Shown in pieces: positions 29,679 through 43,111 of a stretch of 64,000 bases of DNA (within the stretch, counting starts at the first letter, position 1; every line of letters begins with the position of its first letter). The position numbers were made by a program, and so were the translations under genes. The stretch is from Aureimonas altamirensis (GTDB taxonomy: Bacteria > Pseudomonadota > Alphaproteobacteria > Rhizobiales > Rhizobiaceae). Where the stretch lies: assembly GCF_023702225.1 (NCBI RefSeq), contig NZ_JAMQCO010000004.1, positions 56,384 to 120,383 of the forward strand, read 5' to 3'. The notes under the pieces were generated by a model. It saw nothing but the letters and a program-made list of their open reading frames with translations. It did not search any database and had not been told where the DNA came from.

Positions 29679-31103
29679 TCAGCGACCATCGGGAGTCTTC
29701 ATGCCGTGCCATTTGTTCTGCACGGCCTGATAATGAATTTCCGGATCGTAGGTCTGGACGTTCAGCGCCAGCTGGGTCGCCGACAGGCGGCCGACCGCCG
29801 ACAGCAGCTCATAGGAGCGCACGATGACGTCGCGCTGCGCACCGGCAAGCAGGATCTGCGCGCTGATGACATCGGCCTGCGCGTCGAGAACGTCGAGTGT
29901 GGTGCGCTGGCCCACCGTGCGCTCTTCCTGAACGCCGTTCAAAGCCAGGCGGGCCGCCGCGACCTGGGCCCGATAGCCGGTCACATTGGCTTCGGCCGCC
30001 TGAATAAGCGCCCAGGCGGATGCCACGGCCGCGCGGACCTGATCGCGGATGCTGTCCACCTCGATACGGCGCTGGCCGAGCACTTCCTTGGCTTGGCGCA
30101 CCTGCGAGGCGACGAGACCACCCTGGTAAAGGGGTATCGTCAACGTGGCGCCCACGCTGGCGGACAATTCGTTGCTGGAGCCGACATCGATGTCGACGCC
30201 CGGCAGTCCGGTCGCGCCGGCCGGCGAGGTCGAGGAATAGCTGTTGTCGACCGAAGCGCCCACGCTCACCTGCGGCAAGGCGCGGCCTTCACGCGACTTC
30301 ACCTCATAGGCGGCGGAATCGACGGCGAAGAGGGCGGCGGCGATGGCGGGGTGTTCGGCCTGCGAGATCGCCAGCGCGTTGGAGATGCTTTGCGGCTCGA
30401 GCTGCGAAGGCGGGCGCGTGCCGGGCGACAGGTCTCCGGCGGGGTCGCCGATCACCTGCAGGTAGACCGCCTCGCTGGAGGCGACCTGCGCGAGCGCGCT
30501 GTTCAGCAGCGCCGTCGACAGGGCCTCTTCCGACTCGGCCTGCGCGACGTCGGTGCGCGTACCCTCGCCGACGTCGAAGCGGGCATTTGCAGCGCGCACC
30601 TGCTCGCGAAGGAAGGCGAGGTTCTGGCGGCGGAGCTCGGCGATCTGGCGATCCCGGATCACGTCCATGTAGGCCGTGACCGTGTCAAGAAGCGTATTCT
30701 GCACGGTGTTGGCAAGATCCGCCTGACCGGCGCGCACGGCGGCCTGGGCTGACTGGATATTGTTCGGCGTCTGGAAGCCGTCGAAGAGAACCTGGTTCAG
30801 CTCGATGCCGCTGCTCAGGACACCGCCGCGGCCGTTGATTCGAGGGAGGCCGTCGCCACGCGTCGTCCGGCTTCGCGTCGCGCTGGCGCTGGCTCCCAGC
30901 GAAAGCGTGGGCCGCAAGCCGGCGCGTGCCTGCGGCACGTTCTCGTCGGTCGCGCGCAGGGCCGCACGAGACGCGTTCAGCGATTGATTGTTGGAGTAGG
31001 CCTTGGCGAGAACCTCGCGCAGGGTGTCGGCACTTGCGCCTCCCATACCGGCAACGAGAAGGCCCAGCGACATCGCCGACGTGAGGAAGAAACTCTTCCG
31101 CAT
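29679..31103 (-). CDS. tolC: TolC-family outer membrane efflux protein
   Basis: This 474-residue protein has a signal peptide (MRKSFFLTSAMSLGLLVAGMGGASA) followed by two TolC/OEP repeats of helical and beta sequence, with TLREVLAKAYSNNQSL at the mature start and the second repeat near VGQRTTLDVLDAQADVISAQI. It forms the outer-membrane channel for efflux pumps and type I secretion. I chose the ATG at 31101-31103 because it gives a signal peptide. A longer frame to 31241 adds 46 residues with no signal character. Confidence 0.92.
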   Translation of the reverse strand: MRKSFFLTSAMSLGLLVAGMGGASADTLREVLAKAYSNNQSLNASRAALRATDENVPQARAGLRPTLSLGASASATRSRTTRGDGLPRINGRGGVLSSGIELNQVLFDGFQTPNNIQSAQAAVRAGQADLANTVQNTLLDTVTAYMDVIRDRQIAELRRQNLAFLREQVRAANARFDVGEGTRTDVAQAESEEALSTALLNSALAQVASSEAVYLQVIGDPAGDLSPGTRPPSQLEPQSISNALAISQAEHPAIAAALFAVDSAAYEVKSREGRALPQVSVGASVDNSYSSTSPAGATGLPGVDIDVGSSNELSASVGATLTIPLYQGGLVASQVRQAKEVLGQRRIEVDSIRDQVRAAVASAWALIQAAEANVTGYRAQVAAARLALNGVQEERTVGQRTTLDVLDAQADVISAQILLAGAQRDVIVRSYELLSAVGRLSATQLALNVQTYDPEIHYQAVQNKWHGMKTPDGR

Positions 31104-31332
31104 TGATATACCCCGCTTGACGGAAGCGTACCGGACGCTCCCATATTTACTCGCAGGCGACGACAACCGACGCGCCACGCCCCTCAGCATCAAAGAAATG
31201 CACTTTGCGTTAACCGGACGCCAGTGCGAACCCAATTGCAATTCACCTTTTGGGCTGCAGGTGTGACCGATGGATAACAGTTATGCGCCATCCGGTCCGC
31301 AGCCGCCTTTATCACTACCGCGAATTGCTTGC

Positions 31333-31983
31333 CTAAAACACGAATTGCGGCTTGGCGGCAAAACCCGGCAGCGGCCGCAAGCTGCAATTGAAAGCAAAAC
31401 GGCTGGAGACGATCCCGTCCTCCTTGGAGTACAGCCGCGCCGCGGCTGCGTTGCCGCGGCCTTCCACGACGACGAGGCGCCCACGCTCGCGAAGCTGGTC
31501 GAAGAAGACGGGCGGAACCGCATCGACCGCCCCTTCGAAAAGGATCACATCGAACGGGCCTTCCTTGGCATACCCCTCGTTCAGCGGGCCGCTGACGACG
31601 ACCGAGGACAAGGTGTTGGTGGCGTTCAGGTTGCGGGTGGCCGCATCCGCAAGCGCCTCGTCTTCCTCGAGCGCCACGACCGAGCCGGCGATTTCAGCAA
31701 GAACGGCAGCGGAATAACCGAGGCCGCACCCGACATCGAGGACGACGTCCGTGGGCCGGATCCGGGCCAGTTGCAGAAGCCGGGAGAAAGGCGCGGCTTC
31801 CATCAGGTAGCGGCCGCCGCCGAGCGAGATCTCATCGCCGATATAGGCGAATATCCGCTTGTCCTCGGGGACGAAGCGCTCGCGCGGCACGGTCAGCATG
31901 GCGCGCAGGACCGCGTGGTCCGTAACGTCCGAGGTGCGGACCTGATTGTCCACCATCTTGATACGCGCCTCTGAGAAATCCAT
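31333..31983 (-). CDS. Divergent protein-L-isoaspartate methyltransferase-like protein
   Basis: This 216-residue SAM methyltransferase fold begins MDFSEARIKMVDNQVRTSDV, a start typical of the rhizobial PIMT-like protein encoded upstream of tolC. Motif I is VLDVGCGLGYSAAVL, where true PIMTs have GTGSGY, and the rest is shortened, so repair activity is uncertain. The ATG at 31981-31983 matches the family start. It lies 230 bp upstream of the TolC gene on the same strand. Confidence 0.88.
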   Translation of the reverse strand: MDFSEARIKMVDNQVRTSDVTDHAVLRAMLTVPRERFVPEDKRIFAYIGDEISLGGGRYLMEAAPFSRLLQLARIRPTDVVLDVGCGLGYSAAVLAEIAGSVVALEEDEALADAATRNLNATNTLSSVVVSGPLNEGYAKEGPFDVILFEGAVDAVPPVFFDQLRERGRLVVVEGRGNAAAARLYSKEDGIVSSRFAFNCSLRPLPGFAAKPQFVF

Positions 31984-32155
31984 GCTGGCGGTCTCCTGCG
32001 ATCCGATATGCAGGCTTCCATAAATCCGCTGGCGGTAGGGTGCAAGGGCCGACGGACCGGCTGAAATCACACGCAAACGTTCACCGCCCCGCACGCGGCC
32101 AGGCCGGCTTGCAGCCGCGCTGCACAGGCACCATATTTCTGCAGATAAGGAGGAG

Positions 32156-32230
<75 letters not shown>

Positions 32231-32409
32231 ATGCTCTGGCTCTGCCTGAGCGAGGGTGCCTATAGCAAACCCCTCGCCGTCTTGCCAAGCACCCTATCGC
32301 AAAAAAATCGGCCCGTTCGTCACGTCGGCTCCCTAGAAGTTGCCATGATTACCCGCTTATAGGGACTGGTGGGGCGCACGCACTTTTGTTGAAAGATTGA
32401 TCACCGGAC

Positions 32410-32742
32410 ATGGACAAGGAAAAGCGAAACGGCGGCAGCTATGTCAGGCTGCGCGGCAATGCGATCGAAGTCTTCGGTCGCAGCGTACGCCTGCCCGCTT
32501 CACGTCCGGCGCGGGTCGCCACGGGCGCCGCCTTCGTGACGGGAGGCGTCTTCAGCTTCCTGCCCGTCCTCGGCATCTGGATGCTTCCTGTCGGCCTGCT
32601 GATCCTTTCTGTCGATTTCGCCTCTGTCCGCCGCTGGCGGCGGCGTACGACGGTGCGCTGGGGACGGCGTAAGGGGCGTCCGCAACGAATCGTCGGGCAG
32701 CTTCCGCATATCGAGCCGACGGGCAAGGGACACCGCCACTAG
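32410..32742 (+). CDS. Small basic membrane protein (PGPGW-like)
   Basis: This 110-residue protein has a hydrophobic hairpin (FVTGGVFSFLPVLGIWMLPVGLLILSVDF, two short membrane segments) flanked by very basic ends (RRWRRRTTVRWGRRKGR). The segment FLPVLGIWMLPVGLLIL resembles the PGPGW-type two-TM family often found as hypothetical proteins in rhizobia. The function is unknown. It stands alone between tRNA-Asn and tRNA-Cys. Confidence 0.7.
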   Translation: MDKEKRNGGSYVRLRGNAIEVFGRSVRLPASRPARVATGAAFVTGGVFSFLPVLGIWMLPVGLLILSVDFASVRRWRRRTTVRWGRRKGRPQRIVGQLPHIEPTGKGHRH

Positions 32743-32822
32743 ATAGCGAGGCTCGAACCGCGAATTCGATGAGAATGCCCCTTGCGCATCCCACCGGCTG
32801 CCAGTAGGTACAGCGCCGTTGG

Positions 32823-32896
32823 GGCCTCGTGGCGGAGTGGTTACGCAGAGGACTGCAAATCCTTGCACGCCGGTTCGATTCCGGCCGAGGCCTCCA
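32823..32896 (+). tRNA. tRNA-Cys (anticodon GCA)
   Basis: The acceptor stem is GGCCTCG/CGAGGCC with discriminator T and an encoded CCA at 32894-32896. The anticodon stem AGGA/TCCT encloses a CTGCAAA loop, giving anticodon GCA. The T-arm contains GGTTCGATTCC. Confidence 0.95.
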
Positions 32897-32916
32897 GCCC
32901 ATACCCTCCCGTCGCT

Positions 32917-33891
32917 TCAGCCCAGCATCTCCCGCGCCTTGGCGGCCGTGCCATTTTTGCGCGCGACGTCGATCAGGATTTCGCGCAAGGCCGACACGGC
33001 CTGCGACACGATCCTGTCTCTCTCGTGCACGACCGAGAAGACGGTTACGGTCACCAGGTCTTCCGAGCCGGGAACCACGATGAAGGCCCGCCGCATCCGC
33101 GTGCCCTCCACGAAATGGTCGGGCAGAAGGCCCACGCATCGGCCCGTGTTGATCAAGGTCGCGACCGCCTCAAGGCCGCTTGCCTCGCATGTCCACGCCG
33201 CCGCGATGCGCCGGGACATTCGGCCCGGACCCTCCTTGGTGAAACGGCGAACCACCACCCCGTAGCCGCGCGCTGCGAGCCTGTGCAGATGCGGCGCCGG
33301 CTCCCCGGGCCGCGGACAGCAATACAGGCGGGTCTTCTCCAGAAAAAGCGGCTCGCCCACCAGCGTATCGCCGGTCGCATGCTCGGCCGAGGTGACGCCC
33401 AGATGCACCTCGCGGTCCCCTATGGCCTGCACGAGTTGGTCCGGCGGATAGATGGACAGCGACAGGCGCACCGAAGGCGCCATACGCTGGAACAGTTCGA
33501 TCGCATCTGAAATCTTCGCGTCCGTGTTGGTCAGGCAGTTGTCGCAGAGGCCAAGGCGAACCTCTCCTTCCAGCGTCCGGTGCGCACGGTTGATACGGTT
33601 GCGCGCCGTGTCCATGGCATCGTCCAGGGCGGCCGCAGCCGCGTAGACCTCGCGCCCGTAGTCGGTGAGCGCGAACCCCTTGGGGCCGCGCGCGCATAAA
33701 GAGCCGTCGAACCTCAACTCAAGTGCACGAACGGCGCGGCTGGCTGCCGTCTTCTCGATGCCGAACCGCTCCACGGCCGCCGTGATGCCGCCGGCATCCG
33801 CAACTTGGCGGAAAAGCTGCATGTTCCGCAGGTCGATCGTCGACAAGGCACCGATCTGCCGATGCGTCGGATTGAGAAGGCGCGGCGCCAT
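32917..33891 (-). CDS. LysR-family transcriptional regulator of the ureohydrolase operon
   Basis: This 324-residue LTTR has an N-terminal winged helix (LRNMQLFRQVADAGGITAAVERFGIEKTAASRAVRALE) and a C-terminal effector-binding domain. It is divergent from the ureohydrolase/ABC/DUF1989 operon, with 188 bp between start codons holding a large dyad. By the usual LTTR pattern it should sense the substrate or a breakdown product and activate the operon, but this is inference. The annotated ATG may be a few codons upstream of the true start near TIDLRNMQLF. Confidence 0.9.
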   Translation of the reverse strand: MAPRLLNPTHRQIGALSTIDLRNMQLFRQVADAGGITAAVERFGIEKTAASRAVRALELRFDGSLCARGPKGFALTDYGREVYAAAAALDDAMDTARNRINRAHRTLEGEVRLGLCDNCLTNTDAKISDAIELFQRMAPSVRLSLSIYPPDQLVQAIGDREVHLGVTSAEHATGDTLVGEPLFLEKTRLYCCPRPGEPAPHLHRLAARGYGVVVRRFTKEGPGRMSRRIAAAWTCEASGLEAVATLINTGRCVGLLPDHFVEGTRMRRAFIVVPGSEDLVTVTVFSVVHERDRIVSQAVSALREILIDVARKNGTAAKAREMLG

Positions 33892-33979
33892 CGGCTGTCG
33901 ATCACGCCGGAACGATTGGTTGCAGATTCCGCAACCGCGGCTCGAAACTCGTCCTTCTCAACGGGCACACCCCATGAAA

Positions 33980-34011
33980 GATTAAAAAATAGGTCTGGTT
34001 ATTTCTTAATC
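33980..34011. promoter_or_regulatory. 32-bp AT-rich dyad, candidate LysR operator
   Basis: GATTAAAAAATA (33980-33991) and TATTTCTTAATC (34000-34011) are inverted copies with one mismatch in 12 positions, separated by 8 nt. It lies 68 bp upstream of the first ureohydrolase ATG, in the region shared with the divergent LysR gene. It contrasts with the GC-rich surroundings and fits an LTTR recognition site. Confidence 0.6.
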
Positions 34012-34079
34012 ATGCCGACGGTCTGCCGCAATGCGGAAGCGACCGTTCGTTTTCAGCGCCTGCCCGAAGAGATGCCAAG

Positions 34080-35048
34080 ATGACGACAATGCCCCTGACG
34101 GTTCCCGCTGCCATGTCATACGGCAGTTTCCTGTACTCCCCCGTAGAAACGGACCTCGACGCCCTCACGGCCGACATCGCCTTTCTGGGCATACCCCATG
34201 GCAGCGCCTATACGCCCGACGCGCTCAGCAACGACCAGATCAACGCGCCCGACACGATCCGCCGCATGACGGATCGCGTCTCGCGTTCGCTCGAGCGGCA
34301 CGACTTCGATGTGGGCGGCCCGATCTACGACAACCGGCCGGTTCGCGCGGTGGATGTCGGCAACGTGCCCTACGACCTGGAAGTGCCGGGCGGCGGGCAT
34401 TTCGCCAGAGCCGAGGAAGCGGTGCGAAAGATCCTCCGGGCCGGGGCGATGCCCATAACCTTCGGCGGCGACCACGGCATTCCCATTCCCATATTCCGTG
34501 CGCTGTCGGAGCTTGGCGGAGACCCGATCACCCTTGTGCAGATCGATGCGCACATCGATTGGCGGAACGAGGTGAATGGCGTTCATGACGGCCTCTCCAG
34601 CCCGATCCGCAGGGCGTCGGAAATGCCGCATATCGGTGAGATCTTCCAGATCGGCATCCGTGCCCAGGGCAGCGGCCGGCCGGAAGAGTACGAGGCGGCC
34701 ATGGCCTACGGGGCACAGATCATCCCCGCCTTCGAGGTGCATGACGGTGGCATCGATGCCGTGCTGGCGCGCATTCCGGCCGGTGGCCGCTACTACATCA
34801 CCATCGACGCAGACGGCCTCGACCCATCGGAGGCGCCCGGCGTCGAAGGCCCCGCCCCCGGCGGGCTGACCTTCCATCAATGCCGCAGGCTCATCCACGG
34901 CCTTGTCGGCAAGGGCCGCGTCGTCGGCATGGATATCGTCGAGATCACCCCCGCGCGCGACGTCAACAACATCACCTCCGTAGTCGCCGGGAGACTGGCG
35001 GTGAACCTTATCGGCGCGGCCGTCCGCGCCGGATATTTCGACCGGTGA
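34080..35048 (+). CDS. Ureohydrolase (agmatinase/arginase-fold), first paralogue
   Basis: This 322-residue binuclear-metal hydrolase removes urea from guanidino compounds. Metal ligands are all present: GGDHG (129-133), DAHID (156-160) and DADGLDPS (243-250). The usual HGTPFRRA substrate loop after DAHxD is replaced by HDGLSSPIRRASEM, which suggests a substrate other than plain arginine. Annotation pipelines would call it agmatinase. It is the first gene of a seven-cistron operon with an ABC importer, a second ureohydrolase and a DUF1989 protein. Substrate unknown. Confidence 0.9.
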   Translation: MTTMPLTVPAAMSYGSFLYSPVETDLDALTADIAFLGIPHGSAYTPDALSNDQINAPDTIRRMTDRVSRSLERHDFDVGGPIYDNRPVRAVDVGNVPYDLEVPGGGHFARAEEAVRKILRAGAMPITFGGDHGIPIPIFRALSELGGDPITLVQIDAHIDWRNEVNGVHDGLSSPIRRASEMPHIGEIFQIGIRAQGSGRPEEYEAAMAYGAQIIPAFEVHDGGIDAVLARIPAGGRYYITIDADGLDPSEAPGVEGPAPGGLTFHQCRRLIHGLVGKGRVVGMDIVEITPARDVNNITSVVAGRLAVNLIGAAVRAGYFDR

Positions 35049-35083
35049 ACCTGTTTCGATCCCCCAGCCAGGAGCAAAAGCGC

Positions 35084-35938
35084 ATGAACATGACCCGACG
35101 CCAACTCGGCCTTCTGGTCGGGGCGACAGGCCTCGTCCTAGCCTTCCCCATGTCCGGCTTCGCGGCCGGCGGTACGCTCGACAAGATCCGCTCGGCCGGC
35201 ACGGTGACGGTCGGTACCGAGGCGGCTTTTCCGCCGTTCGAGTTCGTCGACGAAAGCGGGCAGATCGTCGGCTACGGCAAGGATATACTCGACGTGGTCG
35301 TCGAGGAGCTCGGCGTCAAGCTGAACCAGCTCGACCTTCCGTGGCAGGGCATCCTGCCGGGCCTTCTGGCCGGCAATTTCGACTTCGTGGCGACCACCGT
35401 CTCGATCAACGAGGAACGCGCCCGCAAATATGCCTATACCGCGCCCATCGCCAACGGCCAGCCCTACATCCTGGTGCGGAAGGGCGAGGCCACGCCAACG
35501 GAAGACGGGTTGGCCGGGAAGGTGGTGGGCACGCAGCTTGCATCCTCGGCCGAGCCGATCGCACGCGCGCTGGACGAGCGGCTGAAGGGCGCCGGCGAAG
35601 GCTTTGCGGAGCTGAAGCTCTATACCGCCTACACCGATTGCTACACGGCGCTCGCCTCCGGCGAGATCGATGCGGTGATCCAGTCCCTGCCCTCCATCGC
35701 CGTGCTGGTGAAGGAGCATCCCGATACGTTCGAGGTGGGCGCCCCGGTCGAGACCGGCGTGCAATGGACCTACCAGGCCTGGGTGACACGGCCCGAGGAC
35801 GCCGACCTGCGCGACTTCATCTCGCAGGTCATCTACAAGATGCGTGACGACGGCCGCCTCTACGAGCTTCAGGAGAAGTGGTTCGGCTTCCGCATGGAAA
35901 TTCCGGACGAAGGCTACCTGCCGCCCGACGCTCTCTGA
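35084..35938 (+). CDS. ABC transporter substrate-binding protein, family 3 (polar amino acid type)
   Basis: The 284-residue precursor begins with a signal sequence (MNMTRRQLGLLVGATGLVL...FAAG). The TRRQLG segment also resembles a twin-arginine motif, so Tat export is possible. The mature part has the SBP family 3 start DKIRSAGTVTVGTEAAFPPFEFVDE and the DFVATTVSINEERA hinge. GGAG lies upstream of the ATG at 35084. It delivers the substrate of this operon, presumably a guanidino compound or arginine derivative, to the two permeases that follow. Confidence 0.92.
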   Translation: MNMTRRQLGLLVGATGLVLAFPMSGFAAGGTLDKIRSAGTVTVGTEAAFPPFEFVDESGQIVGYGKDILDVVVEELGVKLNQLDLPWQGILPGLLAGNFDFVATTVSINEERARKYAYTAPIANGQPYILVRKGEATPTEDGLAGKVVGTQLASSAEPIARALDERLKGAGEGFAELKLYTAYTDCYTALASGEIDAVIQSLPSIAVLVKEHPDTFEVGAPVETGVQWTYQAWVTRPEDADLRDFISQVIYKMRDDGRLYELQEKWFGFRMEIPDEGYLPPDAL

Positions 35939-35995
35939 CATCGCGATTGGCCGATGCCCCGCCGAGGGGCATTGCATCCGGCAAGGTGGCTTTCC

Positions 35996-36658
35996 ATGAA
36001 TTTCGACATCGATCTGGTTTTCGCCGCCATGCCCCGCGTCGGCGAGGCGGCGCTTGTCAACCTGCGCATCGCGGCTATCGCCCTGGCGTTGGCGCTGGTC
36101 GGCGGCACGCTCCTGACCATCGTCCGCTCCCTGAAGGTCCGGCCCGTCAACGCGGTCATCGCGGTGATGCTGTCCTTCATCCGGGGCACGCCCATCCTGA
36201 TCCAGATATTCCTGGTCTACTACGGCCTGCCCGCCGCAACCGGTTTCCGCCTCGCGCCGGAAGTGGCGGGCATCGCCGCCATCGCTGTGAATTCCAGCTT
36301 CTTCATTTCGGAAATCATGCGCGGCTCCCTGCCCGAGATCGACGCGGGACAGGTCGAGGCGTCGACCGCGCTCGGCCTTTCGAGACCGGTCATCTGGGCC
36401 CGGGTCATCCTGCCGCAACTGTTTCGCCGCATCTCGCCGATGCTCGTCAACGAGGGTACCGTCATCGTCAAGGGAACGGCCCTTCTGGCCGTCATCACGG
36501 TGGTGGAGGCGCTGCGCGTCGCACAGCAGATCGGCGCGGCGCGTTTCCGCCCGTTCGAGCCCATCGTCGCCGCTGCGCTCATGTTCCTTGCGATCAACCT
36601 GACGCTCACCTTCGTCGGCTGGCTTCTGGAACGCCGCTTCGCAAGGGAGCGCCGCTGA
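35996..36658 (+). CDS. ABC transporter permease, His/Glu/Gln/Arg/opine family (first)
   Basis: This 220-residue inner-membrane protein has the EAA-type loop (EIDAGQVEASTALGLSRPVIWARVILPQ) and the FIRGTPILIQIFLVYYGLP segment typical of HisQ/HisM-type permeases. The ATG at 35996 follows AAGGTGG; an upstream in-frame ATG at 35954 lacks one. Its stop codon overlaps the start of the second permease by one base. Confidence 0.92.
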   Translation: MNFDIDLVFAAMPRVGEAALVNLRIAAIALALALVGGTLLTIVRSLKVRPVNAVIAVMLSFIRGTPILIQIFLVYYGLPAATGFRLAPEVAGIAAIAVNSSFFISEIMRGSLPEIDAGQVEASTALGLSRPVIWARVILPQLFRRISPMLVNEGTVIVKGTALLAVITVVEALRVAQQIGAARFRPFEPIVAAALMFLAINLTLTFVGWLLERRFARERR

Positions 36659-37377
36659 TGCCCCTCGACCTCGCCATCCTCGTCGACAATCTTCCCCTCT
36701 TCGTTCAGGGCGCCTGGCTTACGCTGCGGATAACCTTCGTCGCCTTCCTTGCCGGCATGACCATCGGCACGCTGGCCGCCATCGCTGCCCTGTCGCCCAT
36801 CGCGCCGCTGCGCTGGCTTGTCGCCGCCTATGTCACGATCATGCGGGGCATCCCCTTCATCGTCCTGGTTTTCCTGACGCAGTACGGCCTGCCGGCGGCC
36901 GGGCTGCGGATGCCGGCCCTGTTCAACGGCACGGTCGCCCTGTCGCTCTTCGCCGGCGCCTACTACACCGAGATCATCCGCGCCTGCGTCCTGTCGCTGC
37001 CCCGTGGCCAATGGGAATCGGCGCGCGCCATCGGGATGTCGCCCTCTGCCGCCGCGCGCAACGTCGTGGTGCCACAGGTTCTGGCGCCCATGGTGCCGCC
37101 GGTGGTGAACTGTACGATGACGATGATCAAGGAGAGCTCCGTCCTGTCGTCGATCACCGTCGCGGAACTGACGTTCCAAGGCCTCGTCGTGCAGGGCAAT
37201 ACCTTCGCCCCCTTCGAGGTGTTCATCGCGGTCGCCGCATTCTACTGGCTGATCACCGGCATTTTTGGTTTCCTTGCCGGCCGGCTGGAACGCCGTCTCG
37301 GCGCCGGACGCGGCAGCCGCAGCCTGTCGCCGCTCGTGGCACGCTACCTCATCCTCGAGGGGAGGACGGCGCGATGA
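36658..37377 (+). CDS. ABC transporter permease, His/Glu/Gln/Arg/opine family (second)
   Basis: This 239-residue partner permease has VTIMRGIPFIVLVFLTQYGLP and the EAA loop LPRGQWESARAIGMSPSAAARNVVVPQ. Start and stop overlap both neighbours (1 bp with the first permease, 4 bp with the ATPase), so the importer subunits are translationally coupled and made together. Confidence 0.93.
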   Translation: MPLDLAILVDNLPLFVQGAWLTLRITFVAFLAGMTIGTLAAIAALSPIAPLRWLVAAYVTIMRGIPFIVLVFLTQYGLPAAGLRMPALFNGTVALSLFAGAYYTEIIRACVLSLPRGQWESARAIGMSPSAAARNVVVPQVLAPMVPPVVNCTMTMIKESSVLSSITVAELTFQGLVVQGNTFAPFEVFIAVAAFYWLITGIFGFLAGRLERRLGAGRGSRSLSPLVARYLILEGRTAR

Positions 37378-38192
37378 CGGCCCCTGCCCTGCGCGCCACC
37401 AACCTGACACGGCGCTTCGGCGACGTCGTCGCGCTCGACAGCGTCTATTTCGATATTCCGCGCGGGCAGGTCGCCAGCCTCGTCGGCCCATCCGGCTGCG
37501 GCAAATCCACCCTCCTGCGCACGCTTCTCTGGCTCGATCCGCCCGACGAGGGCTTCGTCGAAGTTGGCGGCAGATTCCTCGGCCGGGAGTTGAGCCCGCA
37601 GGGAGCGATCCGGCGGCAGAGCGCACGAGAGATCGATCGCATCCGCCCGCGGATCGGCATGGTGTACCAGCAGCTCAACCTGTGGCCGCATCTCAGCGCA
37701 ATGGAAAATGTGGTTCGCCCCCAGATGGTGGTGGCCGGACGCACGCGCGCGGATGCGGAGGCGGAAGCACGCCGCCTGTTCGACCGGCTGCGCATCACGC
37801 CGCTTGCCGACCGCCAACCCGGCGCGCTTTCCGGCGGGCAGAAACAGCGCGTGGCCATAGCACGGGCACTGGCCATGGGGCCGGAGATCATGCTGTTCGA
37901 CGAGCCGACCTCGGCTCTCGATCCCGAGCTCGTGGGCGAGGTTCTGCAATTGCTGCACGAATTCGCACAAGGTGGCATGACCATGCTGGTCGTCACGCAT
38001 GAGCTGGGTTTCGCCCGCGATATCGCCTCGCGCCTCATGTTCATGGATCGTGGCCGGATCATCGCCGATGGCGATCCGCGCACGATCATACGCTCGCGCG
38101 ACAATGCGCGCGTCGCCGACTTCTTCGACAAGGTTTCGGCCTTCCATCCCCAGTTCCGCGATACAACCCCATCCTCAGGAGCCGCGTCATGA
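37374..38192 (+). CDS. ABC transporter ATP-binding protein, polar amino acid type
   Basis: This 272-residue ATPase has Walker A GPSGCGKST, Q-loop MVYQQLNLWPHL, signature LSGGQKQRVAIARA, Walker B IMLFDEPTSALDPE and H-loop VTHE. The sequence resembles GlnQ/HisP. It overlaps the second permease by 4 bp and the second ureohydrolase by 4 bp, embedding the importer between the two hydrolase genes. Confidence 0.94.
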   Translation: MTAPALRATNLTRRFGDVVALDSVYFDIPRGQVASLVGPSGCGKSTLLRTLLWLDPPDEGFVEVGGRFLGRELSPQGAIRRQSAREIDRIRPRIGMVYQQLNLWPHLSAMENVVRPQMVVAGRTRADAEAEARRLFDRLRITPLADRQPGALSGGQKQRVAIARALAMGPEIMLFDEPTSALDPELVGEVLQLLHEFAQGGMTMLVVTHELGFARDIASRLMFMDRGRIIADGDPRTIIRSRDNARVADFFDKVSAFHPQFRDTTPSSGAAS

Positions 38193-39163
38193 AAACGGTC
38201 AACCGGGCCTATACGGGCATACCCAGCTATCTGCGTTCGCGCATCGCCGCGACACCCGCCGACTACGCCGGCGCCGCCATCGGCGTTCTCGGCATTCCCT
38301 TCGACGAAGGCTCGCCCTTCCTGCCGGGGTCGCGCATGGGGCCGCGCGCCATCCGCGAGCATTCGCTGCGGTTTCCCTATGGCGATCCGCTCTACGATCC
38401 CGATACGGGAGAGGAATATCTGGGCGCCGAACTGTCGCGGGGGCTGATCGTCGATTGCGGCGACGTCGATATTCGCCCGGCCAATCCGGGACGCACCTTC
38501 GAGGTGATTACCGCCCGCGTGCGCGAAATGCTGGATGCCGGCCTGTTTCCCGTGATGCTGGGCGGCGACCATTCCGTCACTTATCCGATCTTCGAGGCCT
38601 TCGACACGCCAATGCACGTCATACAGTTCGACGCGCACCAGGATTACGCCGAAATCGACGAGGATCTCGACCGCACCAACAGCCACGCCTTCCGGCATAT
38701 CACGGGCATGGAGACCTGCCTTTCGCTGACCCAGGTCGGCATTCGCGGGCTGCGCACCACGCGCACGCATGTCGAGGAGTTGCGCGCGCGCGGCAACCGG
38801 GTCGTCTGCATGAGCGAAACCCGCCGCCTGGGCGCAGACGGCATTGCCGCGCTTCTTCCCGAAGGCTCGGACGTCTACGTGACGATCGATGTCGATGCGC
38901 TGGACATGTCGCTCGTGCCCGGCTGCGTATCGGCAGAGCCGGACGGCCTCACCTTCCCGCAACTGATGGACAGCCTGAAGGCCATCGCGGAACGGCACCG
39001 CATCCGCGGCTTCGACTTCGTCGAGGTCAATCCGCCGCTCGACGTCGGCACCGGTGCGACGGCCTATCTGGGCGCCCTCGTCGTCACGGGTTTCCTCGGC
39101 TTCATCTGCAACCAGCCCTGGTGGGCGGAACAGCGCGACCGGGCAATGGCGGTGCCGGCATGA
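38189..39163 (+). CDS. Ureohydrolase (agmatinase/arginase-fold), second paralogue
   Basis: This 324-residue enzyme is distinct from the first paralogue. Metal ligands are intact: GGDHS (125-129), DAHQD (148-152) and DVDALD (234-239). The substrate loop reads NSHAFRH (164-170) where agmatinases have HGTPFRR, and the DP of the last motif is DM. It overlaps the ABC ATPase and the DUF1989 gene by 4 bp on each side. Two diverged ureohydrolases in one operon suggest two successive or alternative guanidino substrates. Pipeline name would be agmatinase; the true substrate is unknown. Confidence 0.9.
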   Translation: MKTVNRAYTGIPSYLRSRIAATPADYAGAAIGVLGIPFDEGSPFLPGSRMGPRAIREHSLRFPYGDPLYDPDTGEEYLGAELSRGLIVDCGDVDIRPANPGRTFEVITARVREMLDAGLFPVMLGGDHSVTYPIFEAFDTPMHVIQFDAHQDYAEIDEDLDRTNSHAFRHITGMETCLSLTQVGIRGLRTTRTHVEELRARGNRVVCMSETRRLGADGIAALLPEGSDVYVTIDVDALDMSLVPGCVSAEPDGLTFPQLMDSLKAIAERHRIRGFDFVEVNPPLDVGTGATAYLGALVVTGFLGFICNQPWWAEQRDRAMAVPA

Positions 39164-39774
39164 CGGACGGATCGGAAAGCTTCATCGTCGAGGCCGGCCA
39201 TGGGCTCGCGATCCGCCTGTCGAAGGGCGACGAGATCACCATCGTCAACGAAAGCGGTACACAGGTAGTGGATACCTGGGCCTTCTGTGCACACGAGCCG
39301 GCGCATGCCATGTCGATGGAGCACAGCCGCGTAGAGAACGGGCGTCTCTGCGCCCAGGCGGGCGGCACCTATGTCACCGATCGCCGCGTTCCCATACTTG
39401 CGGTCGTCGCCGACCAATCCCCCGGCATCCACGACACGATCATGGCGGCCTGTGACGCACAACGCTACGTCAATCTCGGCTGCACGGAGCCGCATCGAAG
39501 CTGCGCCGACAATCTGCGGCAGGCGATGGACTCGGCAGGCTTCACGCTCGCACGCGTTCCGCAACCGCTGAACCTTTTCATGAACATTCCGATCGGCGCG
39601 GATTTCAGCCTGACACAGGGCGCGCCGGCAGGCGCCCCCGGAGATTTCGTGACGCTGCGCGCCCTCATGGATTGCGTCGTGGCCCTGTCCTCCTGCCCGC
39701 AGGACATGACGCCCATAAACGGCGGGCGGCCGGCCGACGTGCCCGTTCTGGTACGCCGTGCCGCTAGCGGATGA
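39160..39774 (+). CDS. DUF1989 (urea carboxylase-associated) family protein
   Basis: This 204-residue protein has DUF1989 signatures: VDTWAF, MSMEHSR (52-57), the PHRSCADNL segment with Cys115, and LNLFMNIPI. DUF1989 proteins include the CgdA/CgdB subunits of carboxyguanidine deiminase in guanidine-degrading bacteria, so this one may act on a guanidino or ureido intermediate. Only one DUF1989 gene is present and no urea carboxylase or allophanate hydrolase is nearby, unlike the guanidine carboxylase loci. It is the last gene of the operon. Confidence 0.9.
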   Translation: MTDGSESFIVEAGHGLAIRLSKGDEITIVNESGTQVVDTWAFCAHEPAHAMSMEHSRVENGRLCAQAGGTYVTDRRVPILAVVADQSPGIHDTIMAACDAQRYVNLGCTEPHRSCADNLRQAMDSAGFTLARVPQPLNLFMNIPIGADFSLTQGAPAGAPGDFVTLRALMDCVVALSSCPQDMTPINGGRPADVPVLVRRAASG

Positions 39775-39787
39775 CGCGTCTCATGCA

Positions 39788-40855
39788 TCAGCCTCCCATA
39801 TCCAGCCATCCGGACAGGTTTTCGCCAATGATCGTCGACAGCGCCAGGATATGGGCGTCATCGTCGTTGAGGCATGGGATGTAGGTGAACTCCCGTCCGC
39901 CGGCATGCAGGAAGGCTTCCCGGATCTCGCCGTTGATTTCTTCCAGTGTCTCGATGCAATCCGCGCTGAAGGCAGGCGAGGCTACCGCGACATGGCGGAT
40001 ACCCCGTTTGGCGAGGTCAGCCACGTGCTCCACGGTGTAGGGCTTGAGCCATTCCTCCGGGCCAAAAACCGACTGAAAGGTCGTATCGATGCTGTCCTCT
40101 GCCCATCCCAGACGTTCGCGCAGGAGCCGCGTCGTCTTCTGGCATTGGCAATGGTACGGGTCGCCCTGCATCAGGTAGCGCTTCGGCATTCCGTGATACG
40201 AAGCGACGAGCTTCTCGGGCCGGCTGTCCGCCTGCGCGTAGGCGCGCTCGACGGATTGCGCCAGCGCCTCGACATAGAGCGGATGCTCGAAATAGGCGTC
40301 GACCACGCGGGGAATTGGCTGCCGGAACTGCTTCATCAAGGCGCGGAAGAACTGGTCGTTGGCGGTTGCCGTGGTCGCCCCCGCATACTGCGGATACAGC
40401 GGAAAATACAGGATGCGCGTGCACCCCTCTTCCACCATCCGCGATACGGCCGACTCCACCGACGGGTTGCCGTAGCGCATGCAGAAATCCACCACCACGC
40501 CATCGCCGTATTGCGCGGTGAGCGTCTCGCGCAGCCTCGTCGTCTGCCGGCGCGTGATCGTCAGAAGCGGACTTTCGTTCAGGCTTTCGTTCCAGATCGA
40601 CTTGTAGTTGGCTCCGGAACTGAACGGCCGCTTCGCCAGAATTACCGTCTGCAGGATCGGCTGCCACTTCCAGCGCGGATAGTCGATGACGCGCCTGTCG
40701 GACAGGAACTCGTTCAGGTATCGGCGCATGGACCAGTAGTCGTAGCCGTCGGGCGTCCCGAGATTGGCCAGAAGGATGCCGACGCGTGCCGACGGCACTC
40801 GTGGATGGTCCGCCGGCATCGACGGTGTTCGAGTGGTCGGGAGAGCTTTGTCCAT
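39788..40855 (-). CDS. hemH: Ferrochelatase
   Basis: This 355-residue enzyme inserts Fe2+ into protoporphyrin IX in the last haem step. It has GILLANLGTPDGYDYWSMRRYLNEFLSD at the start of the core, the VASYHGMPKRYL segment with the catalytic His, and TTFQSVFGPEEWLKPYT. It lies 99 bp downstream of the autotransporter on the same strand and converges with the DUF1989 gene. An alternative start at Met13 is possible. Confidence 0.96.
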   Translation of the reverse strand: MDKALPTTRTPSMPADHPRVPSARVGILLANLGTPDGYDYWSMRRYLNEFLSDRRVIDYPRWKWQPILQTVILAKRPFSSGANYKSIWNESLNESPLLTITRRQTTRLRETLTAQYGDGVVVDFCMRYGNPSVESAVSRMVEEGCTRILYFPLYPQYAGATTATANDQFFRALMKQFRQPIPRVVDAYFEHPLYVEALAQSVERAYAQADSRPEKLVASYHGMPKRYLMQGDPYHCQCQKTTRLLRERLGWAEDSIDTTFQSVFGPEEWLKPYTVEHVADLAKRGIRHVAVASPAFSADCIETLEEINGEIREAFLHAGGREFTYIPCLNDDDAHILALSTIIGENLSGWLDMGG

Positions 40856-40954
40856 TCACGCCGGTCCAGTCATGCTTCAGGCCTTCGCCCGCCTTTGGGA
40901 ATGGCTGGATATATGGCGAGGCGGCCATAGCCGCAACTCGCCGAATGGACCGCG

Positions 40955-43111
40955 TCAGAACCTGACGCGCAACCCTGCCGTGCCGGAGACTTCGACACTG
41001 TCGCCGAAATCGCCGAGATCGCTGGCGACACCCACCTGCCCGTACACCGACCATGCGTCGTCCGACCAGTTGTACGTAGCGCCGAGCGCACCGCCGAGCC
41101 ACGTATCGCCGTTGCTGGAGTCCAGGGGGATGCCCCCGACCTCGATCCTCGTGCCATCCAGGAACTCCTGGCGGACATCCACGAGACCATAGGTCTGCAG
41201 GCGGCGGGTGTCGCCACCAGCGGATTGCCACGTCGTCTCGTGATCCAGCGAGATACCCAACCGGCCGACCAGGCTGTCGCCGCGCAGCAGCCGAACGCCG
41301 GCACCCGTGGCATCGGTGAAGTCGTCGAAATCAACGCTGCTGTAGATCAGTTGCGCCTGCGGCGTTACCGACCACTCATAGGCGATATCGAAGCTGCGGC
41401 CCACTTCCACGCTGGCCGACCAGCCGAAGCCGTCATTGCTGTCGGCCTCGACCATATCGAGCGTGTCGGACCAGATGTCCGTCTGGTACCAGGTGCCCTG
41501 CACCTGCGCGTCCGCATAGAAGCCGTTCTGGGCATAATAAGTCAGCGACGCGCCGACGCCCGAGCCCGTCGTGTCGATCGTGCCGGAGCCCGCGAAGGAT
41601 TCGACATCGGCCGAGCCGCGTCCGTGATGCAGCCAGACGCCGCCGACGAGGACGTCCCCGCCGGCCGCCTCATAAACCGGAAAGTCGACCCCGGCCTGGA
41701 TACGCCACAGGGAGCCATCCGACTGCCATCCGCTAGCCGACCGATCCGGCGTGATATCGAAGCCACGGCCTTCGATGCGTCCCCAGACGGCGCGCCCGTC
41801 GACCAGATCCTGCGGCGGCGTAGTCGACAGCGCCCCCTTCCGGAAAGGCTTCGGATCGGCGGTGCCGGACCATATCCGGTTACCCACGCGCTGACGCAGC
41901 GTCGGCAGGCGGTTCATATCGAGAAGCAGCGAGGGATAAGCCTCGTAGAGCGGCACGCCGGGCTGATAGAGCGGATCGCTGGCCGGATCCGAACCGATCG
42001 GATCGGTTGGGGTGCCGGGTCCGCCCGGAACGCTCGGGTCGGTCGGTGTAACGGGCACAGATGGATCCGTCGGATTGACCGGGGTCGTGGGATCCGTCGG
42101 ATCTGTCGGGTCTACCGGGGTCGGCGGCGCATCCTTCGCGATCGAACGCAGATACCAGTTGCCATTGGCCGGGTCGCTGACGCTCCCCTTGTACAGCGAA
42201 TAGGAATAGGCGCCGGCGATGATCGCGCTACGGCCGTTCTGGTCGGTATAGTAGCCATCCAGCGCGAATACGGCGTTCGATGCGCCATCGACCTGGACGA
42301 GGAGGATGCCTTGGTTTGTCGGCGCCCCGATGCCGGAACGGTCGTTGACGATCAGGGTCGAGGTACCGCTGCTGTTTCCCCGGATGACGAGCCGGTCTGT
42401 TATCGACGTGTCGTCGCCCAGGACAGTATCCATTTCCACCCAGTTGTCCTGCCCGACATAATCGCCATTGATCGTCAGGGTGCCGAACGCACCATTGCCG
42501 GCCGGCCTGATGGACCCGGCAACAATGACGTTCTGGACGGCTCCGATGCCCTCGAGCTCCGAGCCCGGGGCGATATTCAGGGTGCCGCCTAGAATGCCGT
42601 CGACCTGCAGGACCTTGTCGTGCACGTTGGCGACGGTTTCCACCGTGCCGGCGAAACCCGAACTGTCGCCCGTCAGGATCGTTCGTCCCGATTCGAGGCG
42701 GACGATGGCATTCGGGCCGCCGACAAGGCTTGCCCCGAAATCATAGGCGAGATCGTCATGGTTGAAGAGCAACTGGGCGGCGCCGGCGCCGAAATCGATC
42801 GACGGAGCGTTGACGACACCCGGCGCAACCGGCGAGCCGCCGCCCGGCGCGCCGATGACGAGCGTGCCGCTGGAGCCAGCGTCACGGCCGATCAAGATGG
42901 GGGCGGCCGAAGTCAGCGTGGCGCCGGGCCCGACGATGACGGTGCCGATGTTGCTCGGCCCGATCTCGACATTGCCGTAGGACTCGGTCCCTACGACATA
43001 GTCAGGCGGAGTATCGACCACCAAAGATTGTGCCGAAGCATAATGTCCGGATACGAGGACGAGACAGGAAGACGCCAGGGCGACCCGGTGAAAACGACGC
43101 AACTGAAACAT
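40955..43111 (-). CDS. Autotransporter outer membrane protein (type Va)
   Basis: This 718-residue protein has an N-terminal signal peptide (cleavage near YASAQ), a beta-helix-type passenger (about 30-325) with GPGATL and GTLTINGDYVGQDN segments, a 49-residue Pro/Thr/Asp-rich linker (329-377), the conserved YQPGVPLYEAYPSLLLDMNRL linker before the barrel, and a C-terminal autotransporter barrel (about 435-718) ending in Phe. The passenger is short and ends in a non-catalytic region, so an adhesin-like or structural role is more likely than a protease. The role is unknown. Confidence 0.9.
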   Translation of the reverse strand: MFQLRRFHRVALASSCLVLVSGHYASAQSLVVDTPPDYVVGTESYGNVEIGPSNIGTVIVGPGATLTSAAPILIGRDAGSSGTLVIGAPGGGSPVAPGVVNAPSIDFGAGAAQLLFNHDDLAYDFGASLVGGPNAIVRLESGRTILTGDSSGFAGTVETVANVHDKVLQVDGILGGTLNIAPGSELEGIGAVQNVIVAGSIRPAGNGAFGTLTINGDYVGQDNWVEMDTVLGDDTSITDRLVIRGNSSGTSTLIVNDRSGIGAPTNQGILLVQVDGASNAVFALDGYYTDQNGRSAIIAGAYSYSLYKGSVSDPANGNWYLRSIAKDAPPTPVDPTDPTDPTTPVNPTDPSVPVTPTDPSVPGGPGTPTDPIGSDPASDPLYQPGVPLYEAYPSLLLDMNRLPTLRQRVGNRIWSGTADPKPFRKGALSTTPPQDLVDGRAVWGRIEGRGFDITPDRSASGWQSDGSLWRIQAGVDFPVYEAAGGDVLVGGVWLHHGRGSADVESFAGSGTIDTTGSGVGASLTYYAQNGFYADAQVQGTWYQTDIWSDTLDMVEADSNDGFGWSASVEVGRSFDIAYEWSVTPQAQLIYSSVDFDDFTDATGAGVRLLRGDSLVGRLGISLDHETTWQSAGGDTRRLQTYGLVDVRQEFLDGTRIEVGGIPLDSSNGDTWLGGALGATYNWSDDAWSVYGQVGVASDLGDFGDSVEVSGTAGLRVRF
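41981..42127 (-). repeat. Pro-Thr-Asp repeat linker in the autotransporter
   Basis: The coding stretch repeats variations of PTDP and PTDPSVP (residues 329-377), seen in the DNA as tandem GGATCCGTCGG/GGGTCTGTCGG-like units. Such linkers act as flexible spacers between passenger and barrel and tend to vary in copy number between strains. Confidence 0.85.

Follow-up and report, generated by a model that had tools for sequence, protein, structure and literature searches.

A conserved, mobile ureohydrolase module in Aureimonas altamirensis and a candidate gene for N-amidino-aspartate hydrolysis

Results

Gene content of the locus

The 64,000-nucleotide stretch analysed here (the window) is from Aureimonas altamirensis contig NZ_JAMQCO010000004.1, positions 56,384 to 120,383. 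It encodes an operon in which two ureohydrolases, here called ureohydrolase A (UHA) and ureohydrolase B (UHB), flank an ATP-binding cassette (ABC) importer and are followed by a DUF1989 protein. Based on our analysis, the operon is part of a conserved, mobile catabolic module, and its first enzyme may be a hydrolase of N-amidino-L-aspartate (guanidinosuccinate). The features of the locus, in window coordinates, are as follows.

32917..33891, minus strand: LysR-type regulator, divergent (Pfam LysR match)
33918..33936: candidate LysR operator, dyad GGTTGC-N7-GCAACC (recurrence in upstream regions of relatives)
33980..34011: AT-rich dyad noted in the original prediction (palindrome search, window and 13 relatives)
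34080..35048, plus strand: UHA, proposed N-amidino-aspartate amidinohydrolase (Pfam Arginase, metal ligands, neighbours)
35084..35938, plus strand: family-3 solute-binding protein (SBP) without the alpha-amino-binding Asp (Pfam SBP_bac_3)
35996..36658, plus strand: polar amino acid type ABC permease 1 (Pfam BPD_transp_1)
36658..37377, plus strand: polar amino acid type ABC permease 2 (Pfam BPD_transp_1)
37374..38192, plus strand: ABC ATPase (Pfam ABC_tran)
38189..39163, plus strand: UHB (Pfam Arginase)
39160..39774, plus strand: DUF1989 protein with the zinc-site residues of the family (Pfam DUF1989)

The seven genes from UHA to DUF1989 are all on the plus strand, and four of their six junctions overlap (the first two junctions leave 35 and 57 bp between genes, and the next four share 1, 4, 4 and 4 bp), just as the original prediction, an earlier reading of this DNA, had described along with the divergent LysR gene. 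Both ureohydrolases match the Pfam Arginase profile well (192.9 bits for UHA and 203.7 for UHB), and the DUF1989 match is 137 bits. A urease alpha gene is present in the genome, on a contig other than that of the window.

Conservation and relocation of the module

The locus scan confirmed 243 relatives, the best 80 of which were kept and are the basis for all counts out of 80. The closest named locus is from A. altamirensis, with 97% identity for UHA. UHB is encoded within 7 kb of UHA in 29 of the 80 loci, L037 being counted among them for a 36% homologue outside the UHB clade; DUF1989 is found in 18 loci and both genes in 17. The original prediction had proposed a comparison of gene order across genomes, and the order LysR-UHA-SBP-permease-permease-ATPase-UHB, with or without DUF1989, indeed recurs in Jiella, Methylobacterium, Microvirga, Aurantimonas, Bosea, Chelatococcus, Bradyrhizobium and Rhodobacteraceae. 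Plasmid copies with this order are found in Salipiger and Chelatococcus (with DUF1989) and in Neorhizobium (without it), and the divergent LysR gene is at the same place in most UHB-containing loci. In 16 of 18 plasmid records the UHA-clade ureohydrolase is annotated as an agmatinase.

The spread of the module is patchy. UHB was found at an E value of 1e-70 or better in 6 of 385 class-sampled and 4 of 247 family-sampled genomes, and UHA in 13 of the 247, six of them at only 43-45% identity. In the phylum sample, 5 of 398 genomes encode UHA, four besides that of the window; of these four loci, one has UHB and DUF1989 and two have RidA, one of the latter with PrpD and ArgE as well.

In the window the module is placed between tRNA-Cys (32823-32896) and hemH (39788-40855). 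In another A. altamirensis genome (G604), this site is empty (L151), with 251 bp of the alignment separating hemH from the tRNA-Cys side, and the module is on another contig (L152), about 90 bp from tRNA-Val and 88% identical over window positions 32917-39752. Therefore, the whole 6.8-kb module has changed place as a unit. Three relatives were compared at this site, with the empty site in L151 only and L150 and L153 aligning on the hemH side alone. At the module's far edge, a search for direct repeats matching the tRNA ends found none. On the hemH side, the hemH match is listed with one internal stop in 5 of 21 genomes of the genus (G984, G987, G989, G990 and G992), and a gene for an autotransporter beta-barrel protein (40955-43111, minus strand) adjoins the ferrochelatase gene.

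Two ureohydrolase clades with altered substrate pockets

UHA and UHB belong to PF00491 by profile match, arginase fold and the presence of six metal ligands, the predicted model of UHB falling below 50 in predicted local distance difference test (pLDDT) at residues 237-248. Residue conservation was assessed over 91 UHA and 37 UHB sequences of 290-365 aa. The ligands H132, D156, H158, D160, D243 and D245 of UHA and H128, D148, H150, D152, D234 and D236 of UHB are each invariant (1.00) in their clade, in agreement with the original prediction, which had also quoted the altered substrate loops of the two proteins correctly. In a tree of 86 of 143 rows, with long branches flagged, UHA and UHB form two separate clades apart from GbuA and GpuA (fork support 100/97). 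To our knowledge, neither clade has an experimentally tested member. Agmatinase identity was rejected for both proteins, as they score 136 (UHA) and 136.9 bits (UHB) against a TIGR01230 cut-off of 174.3.

The pocket of UHA has two conserved arginines, R162 (0.99) and R200 (1.00), one in each of two substrate loops, and neither is found in 1wog, GdmH, GpuA or GbuA. By their position relative to the metal ligands and the GxR motif, we take R162 and R200 to occupy the places of arginase N130 and E186, which presumably engage the alpha-carboxylate and the alpha-amino group of arginine. Similarly, UHB R189 presumably takes the place of arginase D183. At the position of the catalytic His of GbuA, GpuA and GdmH, UHB has Asn in all 37 sequences, as does 1wog.

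Guanidine itself was rejected as the substrate because the GdmH catalytic His is missing, no carboxylase is above cut-off and no riboswitch was matched. The original prediction had seen no urea carboxylase at the locus, and none in the genome (assembly 98.66% complete) passes the TIGR02712 cut-off for urea (guanidine) carboxylase (best 569.6 against 1303.85 bits). A gathering-score Rfam scan of positions 31000-41000 for a guanidine riboswitch returned two tRNAs only.

The solute-binding protein has lost the alpha-amino-binding Asp

In the lysine-arginine-ornithine-binding protein, an Arg holds the alpha-carboxylate of the ligand and an Asp its alpha-amino group, roles we assume to carry over to the SBP of the module. 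The window SBP has Ser where the aligned solved amino acid SBPs have Asp, and it retains the Arg. Across 66 UHA-linked SBP rows (same strand, within 7 kb), 64 are without the Asp (24 Gly, 20 Ser, 17 Pro, 2 Asn and 1 Ala) and all 66 have the carboxylate-binding Arg (ER motif), the rows being those collected by likeness to three query SBPs, with unlike SBPs outside the count. One of the two rows that keep the Asp is a second upstream transporter in L015. Other SBPs of the same loci have Asp in 6 of 7 cases and Gly in the remaining one. The Asp is also lost in distant SBPs of PrpD-type loci.

Loss of the Asp with retention of the Arg suggests that the imported ligand most likely bears a carboxylate and has no free alpha-amino group. 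Free arginine, canavanine and other free alpha-amino acids are accordingly disfavoured by the SBP change, and the suggestion in the original prediction of a modified arginine is not supported for any such compound with a free alpha-amino group. The broader part of that prediction, an importer-coupled guanidino pathway, is supported as far as uptake and hydrolysis of a guanidino carboxylate are concerned, given that neither hydrolase is of a characterised type and that a carboxylase route is lacking; that UHA and UHB act successively on one compound, as it also proposed, is unproven. The firmest part of the functional inference is that a guanidino carboxylate lacking a free alpha-amino group is taken up. 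The window transporter is in the subfamily found at alphaproteobacterial aspartase loci (48-51% identity for the SBP and 57-58% for permease 1).

Genes beside UHA in other genomes

A gene was counted as a neighbour in the 80 loci if it was encoded on the UHA strand within 7 kb and scored at least 100 bits. UHB is present in 29 loci, at least one of RidA, PrpD, ArgE, an aspartase-family or an asparaginase-family gene in 38, neither in 13 and both in none (Fisher 9e-12, relatedness ignored). By member, RidA is found in 29 loci, PrpD in 15, ArgE in 10, an asparaginase-family gene downstream of UHA in 5 and an aspartase-family gene in 4.

The aspartase-family gene directly follows UHA in Pseudorhodobacter and Aminobacter (L040, L042, L043 and L131) and in Citrobacter amalonaticus (L084), where a gene for a DcuA/B C4-dicarboxylate transporter comes next. 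The proteins of L040, L042 and L084 score above 510, the cut-off of the aspartate ammonia-lyase subfamily. As the L084 and L042 proteins share only about 40% identity, such a gene was likely recruited twice beside UHA. A search of Escherichia coli with the Citrobacter stretch that spans UHA, aspartase and Dcu gave 583 matching records, none covering 80% of the query, and the 10 records listed matched the carrier part only.

The best solved relative of the MmgE/PrpD protein of L069 is iminodisuccinate epimerase (2hp0/2hp3, 7e-47), followed by the IRG1-type decarboxylase of Bacillus subtilis (3e-42). UHA is found with MmgE/PrpD and RidA in Pseudomonas (L038, L041, L044, L047 and others), and similar sets are present in enterics and other bacteria. 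Given that iminodisuccinate and N-amidino-aspartate are both N-substituted aspartates, a C4 N-substituted aspartate may be the common denominator of the neighbours. This lead is absent from the original prediction.

The UHB and DUF1989 genes

The DUF1989 protein of the window has the zinc-site residues C98, C115, C179, H112 and D182, and its three cysteines align with those named for trimethylamine N-oxide demethylase. It is below the curated cut-offs of both TIGR03425 (UAAP1; 50.9 against 205.95) and TIGR03424 (UAAP2; 95.1 against 284.7). Two to four DUF1989 genes follow UHB in L013, L014, L015, L016, L017, L021 and L024, and one copy (L017, 15346-15960) is without the zinc cysteines, as expected of an inactive partner. 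In L113 (6105-10385), UHB and DUF1989 are encoded with an amidohydrolase and a histidine ammonia-lyase above the hutH cut-off. In L072 (1140-6170), such a lyase, again above the cut-off, shares one place with UHB, UHA and DUF1989.

The upstream region

Between the LysR gene and UHA, the dyad GGTTGC-N7-GCAACC contains a LysR-box-like core, TTGC-N7-GCAA (33920-33934), that recurs in part of the relatives. Among 27 upstream regions, that of the window being one, 11 contain the motif TTGC-N3-8-GCAA, nine of them with N7, and 16 lack it; the motif was picked after the palindromes of the relatives had been inspected, and shuffles preserving base composition alone give an expectation of 0-0.03 each. 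L022 and L026 share 15 identical bases at the dyad and may not be independent. The AT-rich dyad of the original prediction exists, and in a comparison of the three best palindromes from each of 13 relatives it was found only in the near-identical A. altamirensis relative, for which reason it was rejected as the operator.

Discussion

A possible route from guanidinosuccinate to aspartate and urea

The best single candidate for the function of the module, at a probability of roughly 0.46, is that it takes up guanidinosuccinate and that UHA converts this to aspartate and urea. Under this scenario, a LysR-controlled catabolic module would use its ABC importer to bring in a guanidino carboxylate that lacks a free alpha-amino group. 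UHA, as a binuclear-metal ureohydrolase, would then split the imported compound into urea and an amino acid, the likeliest substrate being N-amidino-L-aspartate, with L-aspartate as the product. The urea would be passed on to the urease, whose gene is on another contig, and UHB with DUF1989 would form a parallel branch acting on a second guanidino or amidine compound. This proposal draws on the aspartase-family, asparaginase-family, Dcu and iminodisuccinate-epimerase-like neighbours of UHA, the pocket arginines, the SBP change, the subfamily of the transporter and the presence of urease.

A number of observations weigh against guanidinosuccinate as the substrate. At the catalytic His position of GbuA, GpuA and GdmH, the window UHA and 78% of its clade have Leu, and other members have Tyr. 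Equivalents of both R162 and R200 are found in second ureohydrolases of L046 and L037, outside the UHA clade, and an R200 equivalent is found in the UHBs of L050, L061 and L066. Aspartase-family neighbours occur in only 4 of the 80 loci, none of them of the window's own operon type, and no such neighbour was found in the fetched stretches of the further phylum-sample UHA loci. The proteins of L040, L042 and L084 miss the aspA equivalog cut-off of 681.2 (567.8, 598.5 and 485.7 bits, respectively). This shortfall, and the occurrence of the two arginines beyond UHA, lowered our confidence. The asparaginase-like protein of L039 is under the asparaginase cut-offs, and the L056 carrier beside UHA is a DcuC-family protein whose best match, itself below cut-off, is the putative basic amino acid antiporter YfcC. 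RidA, beside UHA in 29 loci, is unaccounted for by guanidinosuccinate hydrolysis; ArgE-like deacetylases point to arginine-type chemistry; UHA is found with histidine ammonia-lyase in L072; and the second SBP row that keeps the Asp is from L010.

The ArgE-like neighbours raise the alternative that the substrate of UHA is N-acetylarginine, or some other N-acyl arginine, and is split into urea and N-acetylornithine, with an ArgE-type deacetylase finishing the reaction where present. The deacetylase scores 384.5 against an acetylornithine deacetylase cut-off of 297.7 and is on the same strand in 10 of the 80 loci, and the SBP would also be compatible with a blocked alpha-amino group. However, the aspartase-family, asparaginase-family, Dcu and iminodisuccinate-epimerase-like neighbours are left unexplained, and none of the 29 UHB loci has a same-strand ArgE that scores at least 100 bits, making this route unlikely. 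We also regard as improbable a simple omega-guanidino acid (guanidinoacetate, guanidinopropionate, guanidinobutyrate or the like) as the UHA substrate. The SBP pocket would suit a carboxylate without an alpha-amino group, guanidinobutyrase and guanidinopropionase are among the best solved relatives of UHA by sequence, and the pocket arginines are present; but two conserved arginines exceed the need of one carboxylate, UHA is far from GbuA and GpuA in the tree (long branches flagged), and the C4 neighbours again find no explanation.

UHA and UHB could instead form one heteromer like metformin hydrolase, with both subunits metal-loaded, an arrangement that fits any of the substrates considered here. 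Ureohydrolase pairs with both metal sites intact are raised as an open question in PMC11271267, and UHA and UHB distances correlate at r 0.93 over 33 loci, with none of 2000 permutations as high. As close relatives are included in that correlation, it argues for co-inheritance and not contact. No UHB is found within 7 kb of UHA in 51 of the 80 loci (a few of these contigs are short), UHB is without UHA in the seen stretches of L113-L115 (that of L116 ends beside UHB), and the two genes are non-adjacent in the window. Given this independent occurrence, a heteromer as the rule is disfavoured and quite unlikely. Least likely of all is the hydrolysis of N-formimidoyl-L-aspartate, a compound of the imidazoleacetate/histamine route, to aspartate and formamide, a reaction like that of HutG on the glutamate analogue: it would account for the aspartate-linked neighbours equally well, the arginase fold includes formimidoylglutamases and L072 has its lyase, but UHA scores lower for hutG (80.8 bits) than for agmatinase (136), and besides the L072 lyase no histidine or imidazole pathway enzyme is above cut-off among the scanned neighbours.

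Beside the guanidinosuccinate route proposed for UHA, UHB and the zinc DUF1989 protein would make up a second, co-inherited branch on another guanidino or amidine compound. A more extended and rather doubtful version holds that UHA is the amidinoaspartase gene within a two-branch guanidinosuccinate module, in which UHB and a zinc DUF1989 deiminase would process a further N-amidino carboxylate, such as the D isomer or a similar acid. On this view, the DUF1989 family would extend to deiminases of N-amidino carboxylates more broadly, with the carboxyguanidine enzyme as one case.

Comparison with known systems

Amidinoaspartase (EC 3.5.3.14) converts N-amidino-L-aspartate to L-aspartate and urea and was described from Pseudomonas chlororaphis in the 1970s; we know of no sequence for this activity. 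The reaction is the same as that predicted for UHA, an identity suggested by the neighbours, the SBP and the pocket. The term amidinoaspartase returned no paper in the literature searched, no bacterial guanidinosuccinate hydrolase gene is among the literature matches listed, and no gene for N-amidino-aspartate hydrolysis to aspartate and urea was found in print. If the proposal is true, an old enzyme activity without a known sequence gains a gene, a proteobacterial ureohydrolase clade that most of the plasmid records call agmatinase would be renamed, and bacterial use of guanidinosuccinate, a known uraemic compound, becomes testable.

The closest solved structure to both window enzymes is the Deinococcus agmatinase 1wog, with 35% (UHB) and 30% (UHA) identity in structural alignments. 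Like UHB, it has Asn in place of the catalytic His, and its residue corresponding to R189 is likewise Arg. The arginase fold is also common to UHA, UHB and GdmH (7esr, 9fek), and the GdmH operon, according to PMC12186494, includes ABC importer genes. Unlike UHA and UHB, GdmH keeps the catalytic His, and the window is without a riboswitch match. The DUF1989 protein shares zinc-site residues with the carboxyguanidine deiminase CgdAB, and the cysteine-less copy of L017 is a tandem partner of the kind; in contrast to CgdAB, the window genome has no urea carboxylase above cut-off.

The metformin and dimethylguanidine hydrolases MefH and DmgH likewise have two ureohydrolase genes per catabolic operon, as described in PMC11399263 and PMC11271267. 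According to PMC11271267, the catalytic subunit of metformin hydrolase has Asn at the catalytic His position (N199 in MetCa), and UHB has Asn there as well. However, both window proteins keep all metal ligands, with no degenerate beta-type site, their genes are non-adjacent, and a nickel chaperone gene is absent among the seven genes of the window. The module described here therefore bears on the question, left open in PMC11271267, of ureohydrolase pairs with two intact metal sites.

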